In this document: piece by piece, positions 3,903 through 23,363 of the stretch
How the letters are laid out: each line of letters begins with the position of its first letter
Position numbering within the stretch: position 1 is the stretch's first letter
Assembly (NCBI RefSeq): GCF_003315135.1
Contig: NZ_QNRK01000036.1
Location: forward strand, 1-64,000
Origin: Roseiarcus fermentans
GTDB lineage: Bacteria; Pseudomonadota; Alphaproteobacteria; Rhizobiales; Beijerinckiaceae
DNA: 64,000 nt
Direction of reading: 5' to 3'
Position numbers and translations under genes: made by a program
Notes under the pieces: generated by a model
Database searches by the model: none
What the model saw: only the letters and a program-made list of their open reading frames with translations
Told to the model about the DNA's origin: nothing

Positions 3903-4009
3903 TAGCACGATCTGTTTTTTTGTGCTGGAATGACACGTTGCTTCCGCTTTCGATTTTTTCGTCAGCAGAGCGGGCCGGCGGGGCGGGAACCCCGATCAGG
4001 AGGAAGCCC

Positions 4010-6841
4010 ATGACCGATCGCGCCGGTCTTGCTCCGCTGGGCGCCGAGCCCGCCGGCCAGCCATATCTGGATACGACCGCCTACGGCATGGGGCCGGACG
4101 ATTCGGTCACCGAGGTGACCGAGGCCGCCGCAATCACCCATCACGTCGCGACCGTCGGCGGCGTCGCGATCCCCTACACGGCGACCGCGGGCCATCTCGT
4201 CGCGGTCGATCCCGTCAGTTCGCAGCCGTCGGCGAAGATTTTCTACGTCGCCTTCACCCGGGACGGCGCCGCGGCCGAGGCCCGCCCCGTGACCTTCTTC
4301 TACAACGGCGGCCCCGGCTCCTCCTCGGTGTTCCTGCTGCTCGGCTCGTTCGCCCCGCGCCGCATCAAGACCAGCCTGCCGGGCTTCACCCCGCCGCCGC
4401 CCTACACGATGGAGGACAATCCCGACAGCCTGATCGACCGCAGCGACCTCGTCTACATCAACCCGGTCGGGACCGGCTATTCCGCGGCGGTCGCGCCGTT
4501 CAAGAACCGGGACTTCTGGGGCGTCGATCAGGACGCGCGCTCGATCAAGCAGTTCATCAAGCGCTATCTGACCGCCAACGCTCGCTGGAACTCGCCCAAA
4601 TTCCTGTACGGGGAATCCTACGGCACCGCGCGCACCTGCGTGCTGGCCTGGATGCTGCATGAGGACGGGATCGACCTCAACGGCCTGACGCTGCAGTCGA
4701 GCGTCCTCGACTATCCGGCGAATTTCTCCAACGCCGTCGGCCTCATGCCGACCTTCGCGGCCGACGCCTGGTATCATGGCCGGACCGCCGTCGTCCCGCC
4801 GCCGCCGGACCTGCCGGCGTTCATGGACACGGTGACCGCGTTCGCCTCGGACGGCTACGCGAAGGCGCTCGCCGCCTACCCGAACCAGGATTCTGCGACT
4901 GTCCAGACACTGTCGCAGTATCTCGGGATTCCGGCGAACGTACTGATCGCCTGGCAGCTCAACGTCGAGGCTGCGGACCGGCTCGGCCATTCCCTGTTTC
5001 TCGTCACGCTCCTGCAGGACAAGGGGCTGGCGCTCGGCGCCTACGACGGCCGGGTCACGGGCGTCGACACCGGAATCGCGGCGATCGTGTCGCCCGACGG
5101 CGGTATGAACGACCCGACGATGGCGGCGGTCGGCGGCGTCTACACCGCGATGTGGAACGCCTACCTCAATGGCGAGCTGCTGTTCACCTCGACCTCGAAC
5201 TTCGTCGATCTCAACGACCAGGCGTTCCAGTTCTGGGATTTTTCTCACACCGACCCGACCGGGGCGGTGCAGAAGCCCGATTCCCAGGGCAATCCGACCC
5301 TCTACACGGCCGGCGACCTCGCAGCGGCGATGGCCGCCAACCCCGACCTGCTCGTCCTGTCGGCGAACGGTTTTTTCGATTCCGTGACGCCTTTCCACCA
5401 GACGCGACTGACGCTGGAGGCGATGCCGCTCGCCAACGCCGCCGCGCGGGCGAACCTCTCGATCCGCAACTATCCGTCGGGACACATGATCTATCTCGAC
5501 GGCGATTCGCGCACCGCGCTCAAGAGCGACCTGGCGACGCTCTACGACCACGCGACCCGCACGGTCGTCGCGCGGCTCGCCCGGATGGCGCTCGCCGCAC
5601 GCACGATCTGGCGCCCGATTCACCCCTACTTCCAGTTGCGCAGACCGGGCGCGACGATCCGCCCGGCCGCCGCCGGCGCCGAGCCCTGGGAGGTCGCCGA
5701 CCTCTGCGCCGCTTATTTCTGGCCCAGGACCCTCGCCGGCGACGGCGTGATCGCCATCGTCGAACTCGGCGGCGGCTGGGTTCCGTCGGACATCGACGAA
5801 TATTTCGGCAAGCGCGGCCTGCCGAGGCCGGCGATCGCCGACGTTTCGATCGGCGGCGCCAACACGCCGAACCCGAGCGGCGATCCGTCCTCGAACCCGG
5901 ACGGCGAAGTCGCCCTCGACATCCAGGTCGCCGCGGCCGCCTACAGCGTGGCGACCGGACGCGCCGCCACGATCCGCGTCTACTGGGCGGACGCGCGCGA
6001 CTGGAGTTCCATGGCGACGGCGATCTCGGCGGCGGCGGCCGACGGCTGCGACGTCTGCTCGCTGTCATGGGGAACCGACGAGGCCAACTGGAAGGCCGCC
6101 GGCGAGGCCGCGGGCCTCGATCTCGCCGAACGCCTGAACGCGGCCGCAAGGGCCGCCGCCGCCTCGGGCATGACGGTGTTCGCGGCCTCCGGCGACAACA
6201 ATTCGAGCGACGGCGGCCCGACGCCGGCCAACGTCGACCTGCCCGCCTCGTCGCCGTTCGTGGTCGGCTGCGGCGGCACGTCGAAGCCGCGCGGCGGCGG
6301 CGAGGAAACCGTCTGGAACAACGATCCCGGCAACCCGAACGGCGACGGGACCGGCGGCGGTTACTCGACTCTGTTCAAGCCGATGCCGCAGTGGCAGGCG
6401 GGCGCGCCGCACGGGCCCGGGCGGATGGTCCCCGACGTCGCCGCCAACGCCGACCCGAATCTCGGCTACGCCATCGTCGTGCACGGCCGGACGCTGGCTT
6501 TCGGCGGCACGAGCGCGGTCGCGCCCCTCTACGCGGGCCTGTTCGCCGCCTTCGGCCGCAAGCTCGCCCTCGCGACGCCGGAGAGGCTGCTCACGCCGCA
6601 GCTCTATCTGAACCCGATCTGCTTCACCGACATCGTCAGCGGCGACAACGGCTATTTCCGCGCCCGGATCGGCCCCGACCCGTGCACCGGGCTCGGCTCG
6701 CCGATCGGGGAAAAGCTCGCGGCGCTGTTCGGGGCGGCGCCCGCGCCCGCGTCCGTGACGGAGGGCGAGGCTTCCGTCGTGGAGACGACGCGCCCGCGCC
6801 CGGGCCGCGCGCGCGGTCCGCATCGCGCCGCCCCACGATAG
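4010..6841 (+). CDS. Fused S10 serine carboxypeptidase - S53 sedolisin protein
   Basis: A 943-residue protein joining two peptidase families. The N-terminal half (residues ~30-540) is an S10 serine carboxypeptidase: oxyanion motif YNGGPGSSS near 95, nucleophile Ser203 in GESYG, Asp457 in NGFFDSVTPF and His492 in SGHMIYL. The C-terminal half (residues ~585-915) is an S53 sedolisin of kumamolisin type: Glu633 and Asp637 in GEVALD, oxyanion Asp729 in ASGDNN, and Ser835 in GGTSAVAP. All seven key residues are present. Both families usually work at acid pH. Neither a signal peptide nor an S53 inhibitory prodomain is visible, so export and activation are unclear. AGGAGGA precedes the ATG. It is a lone gene. 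Confidence 0.85.
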   Translation: MTDRAGLAPLGAEPAGQPYLDTTAYGMGPDDSVTEVTEAAAITHHVATVGGVAIPYTATAGHLVAVDPVSSQPSAKIFYVAFTRDGAAAEARPVTFFYNGGPGSSSVFLLLGSFAPRRIKTSLPGFTPPPPYTMEDNPDSLIDRSDLVYINPVGTGYSAAVAPFKNRDFWGVDQDARSIKQFIKRYLTANARWNSPKFLYGESYGTARTCVLAWMLHEDGIDLNGLTLQSSVLDYPANFSNAVGLMPTFAADAWYHGRTAVVPPPPDLPAFMDTVTAFASDGYAKALAAYPNQDSATVQTLSQYLGIPANVLIAWQLNVEAADRLGHSLFLVTLLQDKGLALGAYDGRVTGVDTGIAAIVSPDGGMNDPTMAAVGGVYTAMWNAYLNGELLFTSTSNFVDLNDQAFQFWDFSHTDPTGAVQKPDSQGNPTLYTAGDLAAAMAANPDLLVLSANGFFDSVTPFHQTRLTLEAMPLANAAARANLSIRNYPSGHMIYLDGDSRTALKSDLATLYDHATRTVVARLARMALAARTIWRPIHPYFQLRRPGATIRPAAAGAEPWEVADLCAAYFWPRTLAGDGVIAIVELGGGWVPSDIDEYFGKRGLPRPAIADVSIGGANTPNPSGDPSSNPDGEVALDIQVAAAAYSVATGRAATIRVYWADARDWSSMATAISAAAADGCDVCSLSWGTDEANWKAAGEAAGLDLAERLNAAARAAAASGMTVFAASGDNNSSDGGPTPANVDLPASSPFVVGCGGTSKPRGGGEETVWNNDPGNPNGDGTGGGYSTLFKPMPQWQAGAPHGPGRMVPDVAANADPNLGYAIVVHGRTLAFGGTSAVAPLYAGLFAAFGRKLALATPERLLTPQLYLNPICFTDIVSGDNGYFRARIGPDPCTGLGSPIGEKLAALFGAAPAPASVTEGEASVVETTRPRPGRARGPHRAAPR

Positions 6842-7498: not shown

Positions 7499-10400
7499 AT
7501 GGCGTGGATCGACACGACGGACTGCGAGAACGAACCGATCCGGTACCCCGGATCGGTCATGCCGCACGGGGCGTTGCTCGTCCTGAGCGCCGACGCGAGC
7601 GCCATCGAGGCGGTCAGCGGGTCGTGCGCCGACATTCTCGGGTTGCGACCCGATCGCCTGATCGGCGCCGCTGTCCGCGACGTTTTCGACGCCTCCGCCG
7701 TCGGCGATCTCCTGAGAAGTCCTTCCCCGGGCCTGCGCTCGCCCGCGGCGCTGTCGCTGAATGGCCGCGCGCTCGCAGCCCGCGTCCATGGGAACGCGTC
7801 CGGCCGATTGCTGGTCGACCTCGAGCCCGCGGACGGCCCGCCGGCGGTAGGCTCGGACATGCTCTACGCGCTGCGGCGCGGCATCGACGCGTCGAGGCGC
7901 CTGAGCGACCTGAACGCGATCTGCCAATCCGCAGCGGAACTGGTTCGCGAGGTCACCGGCTACGACCGGGTCATGGTGTGCCGCTTCGACGCGGCGTGGA
8001 CCGGCGAAGTCGTCGCGGAAGCCCATGCGCCGGGACTGAAAGCGTATCTCGGCCTCAACTGCCCGGCCAGCGACATCCCGAAGCCGGCGCGCGATGCGAT
8101 CCGGACCATGGGCGTCCGGATGATCGTGGATGTCCAAGGCGCCCCGTCGCCGCTGCTCGGATCGGGGGAGCCCCGCTCCATCGACCTGGGGGTGTCGAGC
8201 CTGCGCAGCGCGTCCCCGGTCCAGATCCGGCGCCTGAAGGCCATGGGAGTCGGCGCGACCTTGGTCGGCGCCCTGGTTTGCGGCGACAAGCTCTGGGGAT
8301 TGGTGTCCTGCCAGCACCAGAGCGGGCCGAAATATCTCGGACCGGGCGCCCGGGACGCGCTGGCTTGGGCGTGTCAGGATCTCGCAGCCCTGCTGGACGC
8401 GACCGAGACGCGCAGACTTCGCGAGCGCGAGCGCGAGTTGGCCGCCCTTCGTCGGCATCTCCTGGCAGGCGTTCGCTCGAGCGATCTTCGGTCTCAGGTT
8501 CGCGACGGCGATCCGACGGCGCTGCTCGGCGCGGTCGGGGCGGACGGGTTCGCCCTCCTGGTCGGAGATCGCGTCGACGTCCGCGGCGTCACGCCGTCGA
8601 TCGAACGGCTCAGGCGTCTGCTACGGCTTCGCGAGGCGCGCGCGTCGGACCCGATGGTTTTCGCCTCCAGCGCTTTGGCTCGCGATCTCGGCGACGGCGA
8701 CGGCGACGACGGACTCGCCGGCGCGCTGTTCGTCTCGGATCCGCGCTTTCCCGAGGTCGCGATGGTCTGGTTTCGCCGCGAACGCCGCCAGACCATCCGA
8801 TGGGCGGGCGATCCGGATCGCCCGCATCCGGCCGGCGCGGACGGGCGCCTGGGGCCCCCCGCCTCGTTCGATCCCTTTCTGCAGGAGATTGCCGGGACGT
8901 CGCTCGACTGGACGCCGGCGGAGCAAGCCTCGGCGAGGGAACTCGGTTCGCTGATCGAGATCGAGTGTCTGCGCAAGGAGCAGGCGTTCTTCGAGGCGGT
9001 CCTGAACTCGAGCCCGGACAGCACGGCCATTCTCGACGGACGAGGCCGGATCGTCCACTCCAATGCGGCGTGGAACGAGTTTGCCGGCGCCGGCGGCGGC
9101 CCGGAATCCGCGGCGCGCCGCTTCGGCCTGGGCCGTTCGAACCTCCTCGACGTCGACGAGGACGACCTCGAACGCGAACGGGCGGAGACGGCGAGGGCGG
9201 GCGTCGACGCCGTGTCGAGGGGCGACAGAGCCTTTTTTTCCCTCGACTATCCTCGCCATTCCGCAACCGAGCGGCGCTGGTTTCAGATGCGCGTCTACCC
9301 CGTGCGGGCGCCCGGCGACGGGGTCGTGGTCGCTCACCAGGACGTGACGGAAAGCAAGCAACTCGAACTCGAGTTGCGCCAGAGTCAACAACGGTTCGAA
9401 GCACTCTATCATTCGGGGCTGCTTGGGATCACCTCCTGGAACATGGACGGCAAATTACTGGACGCAAATGACCGGTACCTCCAGATGATCGGCTACAGCC
9501 GGGACGATATGAAGGCAGGCTTGATAAATTTATTCAATATAACTCCACCAGCCTTTCGCGCTATTACACAGGAAAGCATGAAAGAACTCACGACTACTGG
9601 CGTCAATTCAAAGCCTTATGAAAAAGTATATATCCGAAAGGACGGCAGCCGGGTGCCGATCCTCATGGCTTCGGTCATGCTCGACGCCGTCAACGCCGTC
9701 GGCTTCGTGCTCGATCTCACGGCCCAGAAGAAGGCTCAGGAGGCGCTGCACGCCAGCAAGGAGCGCTTCCGCCTGCTGGTCGAGGAGGCGCCCGACGCGA
9801 TCCTGCTCTACAATTTCGACCGCGGCCAGGTCGTCGCCACGAACCGGGCCGCGGAGCGACTGCTGAGCGCTTCGCGCGACGAAATCCTCGGACGCGAATT
9901 GCGAGACTTGCTCGCGCGGGAGCAACCGGACGGGCGGCCGGCGGCGGAAACCCTCGCCGAGCACGGCCGACGCGCGCTCGCCGGCGAGGAGATCACTTTC
10001 GAGCGGCGCATTCGCCGGCTTTCCGGCGAGGAGCGACTGTGCCGCACCACCCTCGTCCGGCTTCGGTCGGACGCCCGCCTGCTGCGAATCAGTCTTCTCG
10101 ACATCACCGAGAGCAAGGCCCTCGAAATCAAGTTGCGGCAAAGCCAGCAGCGGTTCGACGCTCTCTACCGATCCGGCCCTGTCGGGGTCATGATGTCCAC
10201 CATGGACGGGCAGGTGACCGACGCGAACGACCGGTTTCTTCAGATGGTCGGCTACAGCAGGGATGACCTGGAGGCGGGACTGCTGAACTGGAAAGCGATG
10301 ACGCCGCCGGAATTCGCCGAGATAAACGCCCGAAGTCTCGCGGAGCTGAAGGACTTCGGCAGCAATCGTCTGCCCTACGAGAATGAATATATTCGAAAGA

Positions 10401-11260
10401 ATGGCTCAAGAATTCCTATTCTCATGAATATTGTCCTTCTGGATGGGTTCAACGGCGTCTCTTTCATTCTGGACTTGACAGAACGGAAGTTGGCGGAAAG
10501 ACATTCGCAGATCATTTTTGCCGAACGTATCGGAATCATGCGCAGCATGGCGGCGGGTCTGGCCCACGAAATCAATCAGCCGTTGACCGCAACGCGTTCC
10601 TTTCTGGGATCGGCGCGACAGTTGCTCGCCTTGCCGCCGGAACGCCGCCCGGTTCCCATCGAAACCGCGCTCGACGAAGCGGCCGACAACCTGACCCGCG
10701 CCGGCGAGATTCTCTCGCGTCTGCGGGAATTCATCGCGCATGGAGAACCCGACAAGAGCTTCGTGAGGCTGCACGATCTGATTCGAGAGTCGGTCGATCT
10801 GGTGGCTCAAACGGCCGGGCGGCGGGGAATCGAAATCACGCTCCAACCGGGCGCAGCGGACGACCGGACGGTCGCCGATCCTGTCCAGATCGGCCAGGTT
10901 CTCGTCAATTTGCTCGAGAATGCGCAGGAAGCCATTCACGAACCGATCCAGGCGGCGGTTGGAAAGGGGCGGGCGACAATCGTCGTCTCGACGGCCTCGA
11001 CGGAGACGCAGATCCGCGTCGATGTCGCCGATACCGGTCAAGGCCTGTCCGACGCCGTGAAGGGTCATCTGTTCGAGCCGTTCGTGACCTCCAAGGCGAA
11101 AGGCATGGGCGTCGGTCTGGTGATTTCGCGCGCCATCATCGAAGCCCACAACGGGCAATTGCGCGCCCGCTCCAATGAGCACGGCGGCGCGACCTTCAGC
11201 TTTTCGCTGCCGCTGGCGACCGAACCCGACTCGAGAGGCCGGAGCGACGACTCGGTTTGA
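7499..11260 (+). CDS. Bacteriophytochrome - multi-PAS - FixL-type histidine kinase
   Basis: A 1253-residue sensor kinase. Order: PAS_2 (about 10-105), GAF (120-300), PHY (310-490), four PAS domains (starting near 491, 629, 754 and 881), HisKA with His1023 in AHEINQPLTA, then HATPase (N box NLLENAQEAI near 1136; G boxes VADTGQGL and GMGVGL). PAS 2 and 4 are internal duplicates (SQQRF-ALY-SG, DANDR-LQM-GYSRDD). The biliverdin-attachment cysteine is kept as Cys9 (TDCENEP), and Asp192 sits in PASDIP. By eye, however, several pocket residues conserved in bacteriophytochromes are changed (see findings). The kinase core is FixL-like and a FixJ-like regulator lies convergently downstream. Located in the cytoplasm; no membrane segment is seen. 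Confidence 0.9.
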   Translation: MAWIDTTDCENEPIRYPGSVMPHGALLVLSADASAIEAVSGSCADILGLRPDRLIGAAVRDVFDASAVGDLLRSPSPGLRSPAALSLNGRALAARVHGNASGRLLVDLEPADGPPAVGSDMLYALRRGIDASRRLSDLNAICQSAAELVREVTGYDRVMVCRFDAAWTGEVVAEAHAPGLKAYLGLNCPASDIPKPARDAIRTMGVRMIVDVQGAPSPLLGSGEPRSIDLGVSSLRSASPVQIRRLKAMGVGATLVGALVCGDKLWGLVSCQHQSGPKYLGPGARDALAWACQDLAALLDATETRRLRERERELAALRRHLLAGVRSSDLRSQVRDGDPTALLGAVGADGFALLVGDRVDVRGVTPSIERLRRLLRLREARASDPMVFASSALARDLGDGDGDDGLAGALFVSDPRFPEVAMVWFRRERRQTIRWAGDPDRPHPAGADGRLGPPASFDPFLQEIAGTSLDWTPAEQASARELGSLIEIECLRKEQAFFEAVLNSSPDSTAILDGRGRIVHSNAAWNEFAGAGGGPESAARRFGLGRSNLLDVDEDDLERERAETARAGVDAVSRGDRAFFSLDYPRHSATERRWFQMRVYPVRAPGDGVVVAHQDVTESKQLELELRQSQQRFEALYHSGLLGITSWNMDGKLLDANDRYLQMIGYSRDDMKAGLINLFNITPPAFRAITQESMKELTTTGVNSKPYEKVYIRKDGSRVPILMASVMLDAVNAVGFVLDLTAQKKAQEALHASKERFRLLVEEAPDAILLYNFDRGQVVATNRAAERLLSASRDEILGRELRDLLAREQPDGRPAAETLAEHGRRALAGEEITFERRIRRLSGEERLCRTTLVRLRSDARLLRISLLDITESKALEIKLRQSQQRFDALYRSGPVGVMMSTMDGQVTDANDRFLQMVGYSRDDLEAGLLNWKAMTPPEFAEINARSLAELKDFGSNRLPYENEYIRKNGSRIPILMNIVLLDGFNGVSFILDLTERKLAERHSQIIFAERIGIMRSMAAGLAHEINQPLTATRSFLGSARQLLALPPERRPVPIETALDEAADNLTRAGEILSRLREFIAHGEPDKSFVRLHDLIRESVDLVAQTAGRRGIEITLQPGAADDRTVADPVQIGQVLVNLLENAQEAIHEPIQAAVGKGRATIVVSTASTETQIRVDVADTGQGLSDAVKGHLFEPFVTSKAKGMGVGLVISRAIIEAHNGQLRARSNEHGGATFSFSLPLATEPDSRGRSDDSV

Positions 11261-11311: not shown

Positions 11312-11962
11312 TCATGGGTCGATCGGGACGAAGAGAAACATCCGCATCAGTTCGCGAAGGTTTCCCGCATTCATCTTGTCCATGATATGCGCGCGATGCG
11401 ATTCGACGGTTCGCGTGCTGACGCCGAGGGCGTGGGCGATCACCTTGTTTTGATGTCCCTTCAGCAGCCCGGCCAGGACGTCGCGCTCCCTTGCGGTCAA
11501 GGTCGCCAGGAGAGCCTGGCTCCGTCGCGTTTCCTCTTCGCGCACCCCGTCGCGCTCGCGACGCAGGGCCTGGCTGACCGCCTCGATCAGGACGGCGTTG
11601 TCGAAGGGCTTTTCGAGAAAGTCGACCGCTCCGAGCTTCATCGCCTCGACGGCGAGGGGAATCTCGCCGTAGGCCGTGATGACGATCGTCGGCAGGCGGA
11701 TGGCCTGCGCGTTCATCGCCTCCAGCAGATCGAGCCCGCTCATCTCCGGCATGCGCATGTCGGTAATCACGCATCCGCCCTCGTGCGGCTCGACCGCGCT
11801 CAGGAACGCCGGCGCCGAGTCATAGACGCGAACCGCATGGCCGGCGATCGTCAGCGCGAGGCGCAAGGCGGCGCGGATTCCGTTGTCGTCGTCGACGACG
11901 TGAACGAGCGAGTGGTCTTTGCCGTCGGGAAGAGGGGTGTCCATCCAAATCAACTGAAACAT
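11312..11962 (-). CDS. FixJ-like two-component response regulator
   Basis: A 216-residue regulator. The receiver domain (residues ~18-135) has the acidic pocket VVDDD, phospho-acceptor Asp in CVITDMRMPEMSG, the switch Thr/Ala in VITAYGE and Lys in LEKPFDN. The LuxR-type HTH (~150-210) reads LTARERDVLAGLLKGHQNK, GVSTRTVESHR. It converges on the phytochrome kinase with a 51-bp gap, so the two most likely form a pair. The start is uncertain: ATG at 11962 or at 11944 (MDTPLPDG), neither with a strong ribosome-binding site. The target genes are unknown. Confidence 0.88.
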   Translation of the reverse strand: MFQLIWMDTPLPDGKDHSLVHVVDDDNGIRAALRLALTIAGHAVRVYDSAPAFLSAVEPHEGGCVITDMRMPEMSGLDLLEAMNAQAIRLPTIVITAYGEIPLAVEAMKLGAVDFLEKPFDNAVLIEAVSQALRRERDGVREEETRRSQALLATLTARERDVLAGLLKGHQNKVIAHALGVSTRTVESHRAHIMDKMNAGNLRELMRMFLFVPIDP

Positions 11963-22184: not shown

Positions 22185-22901
22185 TCAGGCCGCGACCGGG
22201 CGCGGCGCGCGCGCCCGGCGGGCAGTCGCCACGGCGAGCGCGGCGAAGCCGAGGCCCATCATCGCCCAGGTCGCCGGCTCCGGCGCGTTGACCTGCACGG
22301 CCAGGGTGTTCGTCACGGCGCCGGAGGCCACGGCGAACGTGTTGTCGACGGCGAACGCGCCGGCCGAACCGTACCACATGTCGCCACGCGTTCCGACCGT
22401 CGGCGCGCCGCCGGCGCCGGTGAACTGCTGCCAGTTCACGAAGCTGTCGTCATAGGAGCCGCTGTTGCCGACAATGCCGACGATGTACGTCACGGTCTGC
22501 GGAACCACGAGATTGTGGAAATCGAGCTCTTCGGTCGTCCAGCCGTTGCCGGTCGGCGTGACCTGTTGCGACCCGAGCAACGTCCCGCTGTTCGGGTCCG
22601 AGCCGGAATAGATGTCGACCTCGATCGGCTTCGATCCGCCGCCGGCGTAACCGAAAAGATCGACCGTGCTGACGACATAGCCTGGGTACGAACCCGCGAA
22701 CGTGATCGAGTTTCCGACCCCGAACGCGCCCCCTGCGTTGACGGCGCCGTCGCCGGAAAAGCCGATCTGGTTGTTGTCGTACAGGCTACCCGTCGCATCG
22801 AGCGCCTGATAGATCACGGATCCGGCCCGAGCGCCGGTCATCCCGGTGATCGACAGCACAAGGGCCAGCGCCGTCGCCTCCAACACCCCCCTGTTGAACA
22901 T
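22185..22901 (-). CDS. PEP-CTERM sorted exported protein
   Basis: A 238-residue protein with a signal peptide (ATALALVLSITGMTGARAG) and a C-terminal PEP-CTERM signal: PEPATWAMMGLGFAALA followed by a basic tail (ARRARAPR). This tail directs processing by an exosortase and surface or matrix placement. The middle is Gly/Ser/Thr-rich with beta-type patterns (VDIYSGSDPNSG, TYIVGIVGNSGSYDD). The start at 22899-22901 has GGAG upstream; an in-frame ATG at 22967 would bury the signal. No exosortase gene is in the window. Confidence 0.82.
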   Translation of the reverse strand: MFNRGVLEATALALVLSITGMTGARAGSVIYQALDATGSLYDNNQIGFSGDGAVNAGGAFGVGNSITFAGSYPGYVVSTVDLFGYAGGGSKPIEVDIYSGSDPNSGTLLGSQQVTPTGNGWTTEELDFHNLVVPQTVTYIVGIVGNSGSYDDSFVNWQQFTGAGGAPTVGTRGDMWYGSAGAFAVDNTFAVASGAVTNTLAVQVNAPEPATWAMMGLGFAALAVATARRARAPRPVAA

Positions 22902-23363
22902 GGCGTGCTCCAGGCTTTCATGAACGCGCTCGAATAGTGAAAACTCCGAGCGTTCCTCAATTGCCATGTTCGACTTTCGCGGGACTGACCTGCCGCAGCG
23001 GCGCCTCGCAGGCGCCGATCGCCAGCGAGCCTGGCCGCATGGCGGGCGCGCGAATCCGACGCGCCGGCGGACCCGCGGAAGCGAGGCGCGGATGCCGGCG
23101 AGACGCAACCGGGACGGGTTTCCCGGCGGGCGCAGGAGCGGGTCGTCGTTCGGGTGGTTGACCCGCCGGCGCGTCCGGGCTGGCGCGCCCCAGGCTCGGC
23201 GGAAACGCGCCGGACGCGCGTCGCGGAAGACTGCGGCGTCGGCGATCGGCGCCGCGAGGAAGGTTACGCGTTCGCTCCCGCCCGGGCCGCTTCGCCTCGC
23301 CCGATCCCTCGGCGATGCGTCCCGGCGAATGTCGCCGGGACGCCGCGGATCATCGTCCCGCCG
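22902..23363. other. Non-coding gap, nothing recognised
   Basis: 462 bp of GC-rich sequence between the PEP-CTERM gene start and the end of a small exported protein gene. Open frames here lack coding character and ribosome-binding sites. The PEP-CTERM promoter should be in its left part but no clear -35/-10 pair stands out. Confidence 0.5.

Follow-up and report, generated by a model that had tools for sequence, protein, structure and literature searches.

The window studied here is the whole 64,000-nucleotide stretch of the Roseiarcus fermentans contig NZ_QNRK01000036.1, and its gene at 7499-11260 encodes a phytochrome-type sensor histidine kinase, termed the window protein below. This natural phytochrome has lost almost all of its ring-D switch residues, and its tongue latch, to substitution, with the bilin anchors retained. 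We tentatively favour, at close to an even chance, the reading that it retains biliverdin uptake without forming a normal, stable far-red-absorbing state (Pfr), so that it photoswitches poorly or not at all. Judged from its residues, the protein may have ceased to work as an ordinary light switch. A natural loss of one such residue is already known (SaBphP1 of Stigmatella aurantiaca). Built-in controls are provided by an ortholog in which most of the pocket is kept and by two canonical paralogs in the same genome. The system is suited to asking how photoreceptors lose or change function and if bilin binding persists after photoswitching is gone. If biliverdin is bound without switching, the protein would be a possible natural starting point for far-red fluorescent proteins.

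Chromophore pocket and tongue

Sites of the window protein are named by DrBphP numbering, which was assigned by motif. The canonical set of Tyr176, His260, Tyr263, His290 and the tongue motif PRxSF is not found; Cys161, Gln242, Arg245, Gln272 and P453-P454-A-S-F are in these places. The original prediction had proposed these substitutions, with Cys188 at Phe203, from an alignment by eye, and the phmmer and MAFFT alignments bear out every placement. With phmmer, Gln242 pairs with a conserved His, Arg245 with Tyr, Cys161 with Tyr and Cys188 with Phe or Tyr. The Gln272 column holds Thr in wild-type SaBphP1 (6bao) and His in its T289H mutant (6bap), which identifies it as the His290 column. The same residue placement is observed in a 116-row MAFFT alignment and in its 144-row extension, and this concordance led us to reject a misalignment. 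Histidines at positions 260 and 290 were looked for under these alignments, and Gln was found at both. The predicted PPASF is likewise confirmed, with Pro454 in the column of the tongue arginine. Ile201 at the Tyr216 position is an additional change, absent from the earlier list.

The biliverdin side of the pocket presents a different picture. The retention of Cys9 and Asp192, as originally claimed, is confirmed by the 144-row alignment; the Cys upstream of the PAS domain, the PASDIP Asp and the propionate arginines are all present, and Ile193, Pro194 and Ser239 are also kept. Thr254 is conserved (Thr or Ser in 108 of 113 other rows), and Val256 at the Ser274 position is a common residue (Val in 26/113). 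As read from these columns, the ring-A/ring-B propionate side of the pocket is intact and the ring-C/D side is not. The roles of these residues are supported by published work (PMC7164956, PMC11924222, PMC12420706, PMC6748860, PMC6126659). The SaBphP2 numbers Tyr161, Tyr201, Arg157 and Arg207 are identical to the window protein's own, and Ser287 of SaBphP1 is located near the ring-D carbonyl (PMC6748860).

Table 1. Features of the phytochrome gene and its convergent neighbour in the window, with residue counts among the other aligned phytochrome rows
Feature	Position	Strand	Basis or residue counts
Phytochrome-type sensor histidine kinase, 1253 aa	7499..11260	+	ORF, Pfam, PDB sequence match 5e-66
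PAS_2, residues 9-111	7523..7831	+	Pfam
Cys9 (TTDCENEPI), expected biliverdin thioether Cys, kept	7523..7525	+	Cys 133, gap 7, other 2 of 142
GAF (bilin-binding), residues 137-296	7907..8386	+	Pfam; pLDDT block means at least 85
Cys161 (TGC; ortholog TAC), Tyr176 position	7979..7981	+	Tyr 140, Leu 2, Cys 0 of 142
Cys188 (TGC; ortholog TAC), Phe/Tyr203 position	8060..8062	+	Tyr 98, Phe 44, Cys 0 of 142
Asp192 of PASDIP, kept	8072..8074	+	Asp 142 of 142
Ile201 (ortholog Phe), Tyr216 position	8099..8101	+	Tyr 133, Phe 9 of 142
Arg207 (Arg222 position), kept	8117..8119	+	Arg 139 of 142
Arg236 (Arg254 position), kept	8204..8206	+	Arg 142 of 142
Gln242 (CAG; ortholog CAT), His260 position	8222..8224	+	His 139, Gln 0 of 142
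Arg245 (CGC; ortholog TAT), Tyr263 position	8231..8233	+	Tyr 140, Phe 2, Arg 0 of 142
Ser270, SaBphP1 Ser287 position	8306..8308	+	Ser 29, Ala 77 of 113
Gln272 (also in ortholog), His290 position	8312..8314	+	His 135, Gln 6, Ala 1 of 142
PHY, residues 318-491	8450..8971	+	Pfam
Pro454 (ortholog Arg), PRxSF tongue arginine (Arg466)	8858..8860	+	Arg 137, gap 2, other 3, Pro 0 of 142
PAS, first of duplicate pair (residues 622-747)	9362..9739	+	58% identity over 126 aa to second
PAS_4 between duplicates (residues 763-873)	9785..10117	+	Pfam
PAS, second of duplicate pair (residues 875-1000)	10121..10498	+	Pfam; self-comparison
FixL-like HisKA/HATPase core; HEINQP at 1023, NLLENA, DTGQGL, GMGVGL	10538..11218	+	Pfam, NCBIfam, PDB, motifs
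FixJ-like response regulator (receiver + LuxR HTH), convergent neighbour	11312..11962	-	Pfam, NCBIfam

By homology and architecture, the window protein is a bacteriophytochrome. PAS_2, GAF and PHY all exceed their Pfam cut-offs and form a PAS-GAF-PHY photosensory core. More PAS domains and then HATPase_c (residues 1127-1240) follow downstream; HisKA at residues 1014-1078 scores 25.1 bits, slightly below the Pfam cut-off of 26.9. The top five phmmer matches among Protein Data Bank (PDB) sequences are bacteriophytochromes (E 5e-66 to 9.5e-65), their alignments starting at residue 4 or 5 and ending between residues 486 and 532; the best of them is 4gw9 (E 5e-66, residues 4-532). An AlphaFold2 model of residues 1-502, based on a 40-sequence alignment, has a mean pLDDT of 87.8 and a pTM of 0.86, with pLDDT below 50 for residues 1-9, which include Cys9. 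All 50 Foldseek matches listed for the model are phytochrome entries, and the first listed is the myxobacterial phytochrome 6ptq (TM 0.86/0.90). The protein falls below the NCBIfam BphP equivalog NF041576, with 255.5 bits against a curated cut-off of 1040. The open reading frame (ORF) starts with ATG and comprises 1253 codons without an internal stop; with the kinase motifs also present, a frameshift or pseudogene was rejected.

Ortholog, rarity and rate of change

All five of Tyr176, His260, Tyr263, His290 and Arg466 are changed in the window protein. Among 142 other rows, 128 show none of these changes (two of them stop short of the tongue arginine), 12 show one, a single row two and a single row three; this set is non-random, being drawn by similarity to the window protein and its ortholog plus two peptide patterns with kin rows counted separately, and the counts are thus not frequencies for all phytochromes. 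For the 116-row alignment, 13 of 130 ORFs were removed: short pieces, the frame-broken L017, and second copies of the window protein, of the ortholog, of L008 and of the host genome's own loci. A further 2 were too short once aligned. The 113-row counts exclude L075_p_3075, which is included in the 142-row count; L165, as the host genome's own C16 copy, is left out of the latter. At columns conserved to at least 60%, 14 changes are found in the window protein only. The residue at 7 of them (161, 188, 200, 242, 245, 248 and 454) occurs in none of the 113 other rows; for position 200, one Ala appears in the 142-row set.

Several other rows are unusual in their own right. The row with three changes is a second, aberrant phytochrome of locus L075 (Lewinella sp. 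IMCC34183), which has ORFs from about 3075 and about 5781, the second phytochrome lying upstream of the canonical one. Of 50 conserved columns, 20 deviate in the aberrant ORF; His260 is replaced by Leu and Tyr263 by Phe, and the PRxSF arginine is missing. It retains the Cys and the Asp and is possibly another dismantled phytochrome. Gln at the His290 column is found in all five aligned Sphingobacterium phytochromes (L108, L110, L114, L116, L118) and in L163 from the class search. In L068 (Scytonema sp. RU_4_4), the His260 column is occupied by Cys and the biliverdin-Cys column by Ile. In L109 and L111 (Pusillimonas), Leu is at Tyr176 and the remaining listed pocket residues are canonical. L017 (G236:C12) is a phytochrome match containing one in-frame TAA.

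One close ortholog was found (CAIZGR010000868; G009:C868, loci L006/L043), in a metagenome-assembled genome of an uncultured Rhizobiales that is another species of the genus. It is 64% identical to the window protein across the photosensory module. Tyr176, Tyr203, His260, Tyr263 and PRxSF are retained in it, with Gln at His290 and Phe at Tyr216. Both proteins deviate at the other conserved columns 21, 42, 107 and 460. The kinase motif of the ortholog is SHEIRTPLN, not HEINQP, and its gene is truncated by the contig end. A search for orthologs with the same substitutions had been proposed together with the original prediction; the set turned out not to be shared, only Gln272 being common to both.

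This ortholog is the only close relative among the 11 genomes of the genus, own genome included. In 298 genomes of the family, no other relative shares the pocket, the other matches listed being at most 38% identical. Among 397 evenly drawn genomes of the order, with three candidates scored per genome and G009 outside the draw, the own genome is the only match at E <= 1e-72. With the ortholog as query, 385 genomes of the class gave no further member with the same pocket. A pattern-based contig scan, in which a match needs one of two peptide patterns, gave one relative at 64% and others at no more than 35% among the best 80 of 83. Two relatives, neither close, were found on viral contigs, and plasmids gave none at 60% identity or more. 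Within the genomes and contigs covered by these searches, a conserved subfamily with this pocket was rejected.

Since the ortholog keeps the other sites, the changes except Gln272 are private to the window lineage and do not mark a conserved new subfamily. Gln272 is probably the older change because it is shared with an ortholog that otherwise keeps most key residues, and the others probably arose in the window lineage alone. Such privacy to one lineage means that relaxed constraint has to be weighed seriously against adaptation. In a 77-row tree, the terminal branch is 0.41 for the window protein and 0.20 for the ortholog. The pairwise ratio of nonsynonymous to synonymous rates (dN/dS) between the two is 0.39, and canonical same-genus phytochrome pairs give 0.17 to 0.26 (n=4, the pairs overlapping in members and one having a dS of 1.4). 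Constraint on the window protein looks weaker, not gone. From the ortholog, the codons are one nucleotide away at 161 and 188 (TAC to TGC in both), 201 (TTC to ATC) and 242 (CAT to CAG), two at 454 (CGG to CCC) and three at 245 (TAT to CGC). Window-only departures at the columns conserved to at least 60% number 11/72 in GAF, 0/21 in PAS and 3/41 in PHY; ortholog-only departures number 3, 1 and 1. The p value is 0.057 for the 11 versus 3 in GAF, and 0.086 for window-only departures in GAF versus the rest. This suggests a focus of the changes on the pocket, as a trend and not as a proven fact.

Predicted photochemistry and rival readings

In the mechanism we propose, the chromophore would be held at rings A and B by a thioether to Cys9, by Asp192 and by the propionate anchors Arg207, Arg236 and Ser239. 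The residues for switching rings C and D (Tyr176, Phe/Tyr203, Tyr216, His260, Tyr263 and His290) have been replaced, and the tongue, its PRxSF arginine latch replaced, would be without arginine contacts. Excitation of bound biliverdin would then end in heat, fluorescence or a far-red-poor product. The photosensory half would respond to light weakly or not at all. The kinase would respond mainly to its own PAS domains, and the phosphate would pass to a FixJ-like regulator, the simplest candidate being the neighbouring one.

Published variants are consistent with several of these steps. Tyr176 substitutions can block photoisomerisation, and Cph1 H290A and Y203A belong to a class in which the far-red gain is small or absent (PMC12420706). 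Cph1 Y176H is fluorescent, with its tongue uncoupled from the chromophore (PMC11924222). The PRxSF Arg466 is bonded by Asp207 and Tyr263 (PMC7164956). In addition, the two canonical phytochromes of the host could do the light sensing. The suggestion in the original prediction of a light-insensitive, fluorescent or differently tuned sensor agrees with such single-position variants, but a published protein with this residue combination was not found in the literature searched, which covered few subscription papers. The same search gave no paper on Cys or Arg at these phytochrome positions and no fitting paper on a natural phytochrome without a working pocket.

Several observations weigh against a loss of photoswitching with binding retained. 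Cph1 H260Q forms fairly normal Pfr (PMC12420706), and SaBphP1, which lacks a His290 equivalent, retains some photoactivity with a serine that is also present in the window protein (PMC6748860). Chromophore binding can be lost on His260 substitution (PMC12420706), so that even binding by the window protein may be lost. Enrichment of changes in the pocket, defined by a list of residues contacting the bilin or the tongue that was not taken from a structure file, is not significant, with 6/19 versus 6/38 elsewhere at columns conserved to at least 90% (p = 0.19) and p = 0.35 and 0.39 at two other cut-offs. The relative rates are also nearly equal: for 79 of 114 outgroups the window protein has more changes than the ortholog, the medians being 30 and 25, and p is below 0.05 with 1 of the 6 outgroups detailed.

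The clustering of window-only changes in GAF, with none in PAS at conserved columns, would also fit a photoreceptor retuned by selection, with a reshaped pocket, an unusual photocycle (e.g. a far-red-poor, blue-shifted product) and a kinase still under light control. The dN/dS of 0.39, well below 1, indicates that the photosensory module is still constrained, and the bilin anchors are kept. Cph1 H290A and Y203A do yield an alternative photoproduct, but reverse conversion of Y203A is poor (PMC12420706). Gln272 may have been tolerated before the rest changed, as the ortholog also has it and, Tyr216 apart, retains the other key residues. However, the ring-D residues, both His and the tongue arginine are changed jointly, including residues which carry the signal to the tongue, and no ortholog with the whole set was found, so that long-term conservation of the new pocket is not indicated. 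We consider retuning unlikely. Equally doubtful is a chromophore-free relic, in which selection on bilin chemistry has ended and the drifting photosensory half only dimerises or stabilises the PAS/FixL-like kinase. Four of the six key codons differing from the ortholog are one nucleotide away, the terminal branch is longer than that of the ortholog, and dN/dS is above that of the canonical pairs, all of which would fit drift. Free drift would be expected to hit Cys9, Asp192, Arg207 and Arg236 too, though these are intact; the frame is open over 1253 codons and the genome has a heme oxygenase match.

The new cysteines allow two further readings. Cys161 and Cys188, perhaps with the likewise new Cys261, could act as a disulfide or sulfenic switch on the kinase. 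These three GAF cysteines are absent from the ortholog, and among the 113 other rows Cys occurs in none at 161, none at 188 and one at 261. In Cph1, residues 176 and 203 form part of the housing of ring D (PMC11924222), and in R. palustris LhfE, a different sensor, Cys262 confers redox sensitivity in a phytochrome-linked pathway (PMC6879726). However, Tyr to Cys is a single transition, two of which can arise by drift. A thiol redox sensor is improbable. It is more improbable still, and only a slim prospect, that biliverdin is tethered twice, by Cys9 to ring A and by Cys161 or Cys188 to the ring-D vinyl, with ring D locked. If so, the protein would be a natural bilin sensor that does not isomerise and is strongly fluorescent or gated by thiols, and it would drive a FixLJ-like pathway. 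Cys161 and Cys188 are at ring-D positions, away from the known second-Cys sites of dual-cysteine phytochromes and cyanobacteriochromes.

Among known systems, R. palustris BphP4 is a purple-phototroph phytochrome reported to have left light sensing. Its chromophore cysteine is reportedly lost, whereas the window protein keeps the Cys and is changed on the ring-D side. SaBphP1, among the three best PDB sequence matches of the window protein with phmmer, is likewise a natural protein without a His290 equivalent (Thr289 versus Gln272; 6bao and 6bap; PMC6126659, PMC6748860) and has a serine two residues before this site, as in the window protein. It has some photoactivity and, by the phmmer alignment, retains the other key pocket residues and PRxSF, whereas the window protein is altered at six further sites. 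The Cph1 variants Y176H, H260Q, H290A, Y203A and Y263F/S/H (PMC11924222, PMC12420706) concern the same positions, mostly singly, but are laboratory-made and carry phycocyanobilin, not biliverdin. In each of the Cph1 and SaBphP variants cited, the alterations concern one or two such residues (PMC7164956, PMC11924222, PMC12420706, PMC6748860, PMC6126659), and the heavily substituted fluorescent phytochromes are man-made (PMC11924222). The engineered near-infrared fluorescent phytochromes PAiRFP1 and PAiRFP2, derived from Agp2 with 15 and 24 substitutions, illustrate that many changes in one phytochrome alter photochemistry. They are products of laboratory directed evolution, and the likeness drawn here is that of many substitutions in one protein.

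Kinase output, neighbouring genes and host genome

The kinase half is FixL-like, as originally proposed. Its best PDB sequence match is 4gcz, a chimera containing FixL (9e-55), and the NCBIfam FixL family NF041777 gives 253.6 bits (best stretch 827-1241), far below the cut-off of 850, which makes it FixL-like and not FixL. The convergent neighbour reaches 240 bits with the FixJ family NF006900 against a curated cut-off of 255 and is FixJ-like. The motifs of both kinase and regulator are present. From adjacency and type, we infer that the two pair with each other. Laboratory chimeras of a phytochrome module and a FixL kinase function with FixJ (PMC11164954), so coupling of phytochrome to FixL is feasible. 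In DrF1/pREDusk, a phytochrome module drives a FixL-type kinase with a FixJ regulator, as proposed here, but these constructs are man-made, with the DrBphP photosensory module and pocket fused directly to the DHp/CA of BjFixL and more than 200-fold light control (PMC11164954). Sequences resembling the output half of the window protein are found on contigs C9 and C32 of the same genome, at 54% and 63% identity.

The host genome (6.79 Mb, 90 contigs) contains two reaction-centre L/M-family genes and two other phytochromes, on contigs C16 and C19, in which all key residues are canonical. It has one heme oxygenase match, on contig C5 (26 and 32 bits in two scans, cut-off 23), flanked by genes for a uracil-DNA-glycosylase-family protein and an NAD synthase and not beside a phytochrome. 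This candidate has no NCBIfam match. The bilin reductase family Fe_bilin_red gave no match in the host genome, and another bilin was thus rejected. Next to the C16 phytochrome is a PAS protein carrying a Fis-type helix-turn-helix (HTH), with a B12-binding protein and a DXP synthase nearby. We read this as a probable PpsR/AerR photosynthesis neighbourhood of the kind known from purple bacteria. Around the window gene, ten ORFs between 899 and 23108 were scanned (one without a family match), and none is of this kind. Elsewhere in the window, a single ORF at 3920-6841 combines a serine-carboxypeptidase-family part with a subtilase-family part, and a protein carrying a PEP-CTERM sorting motif is encoded at 22185-23108 on the minus strand.

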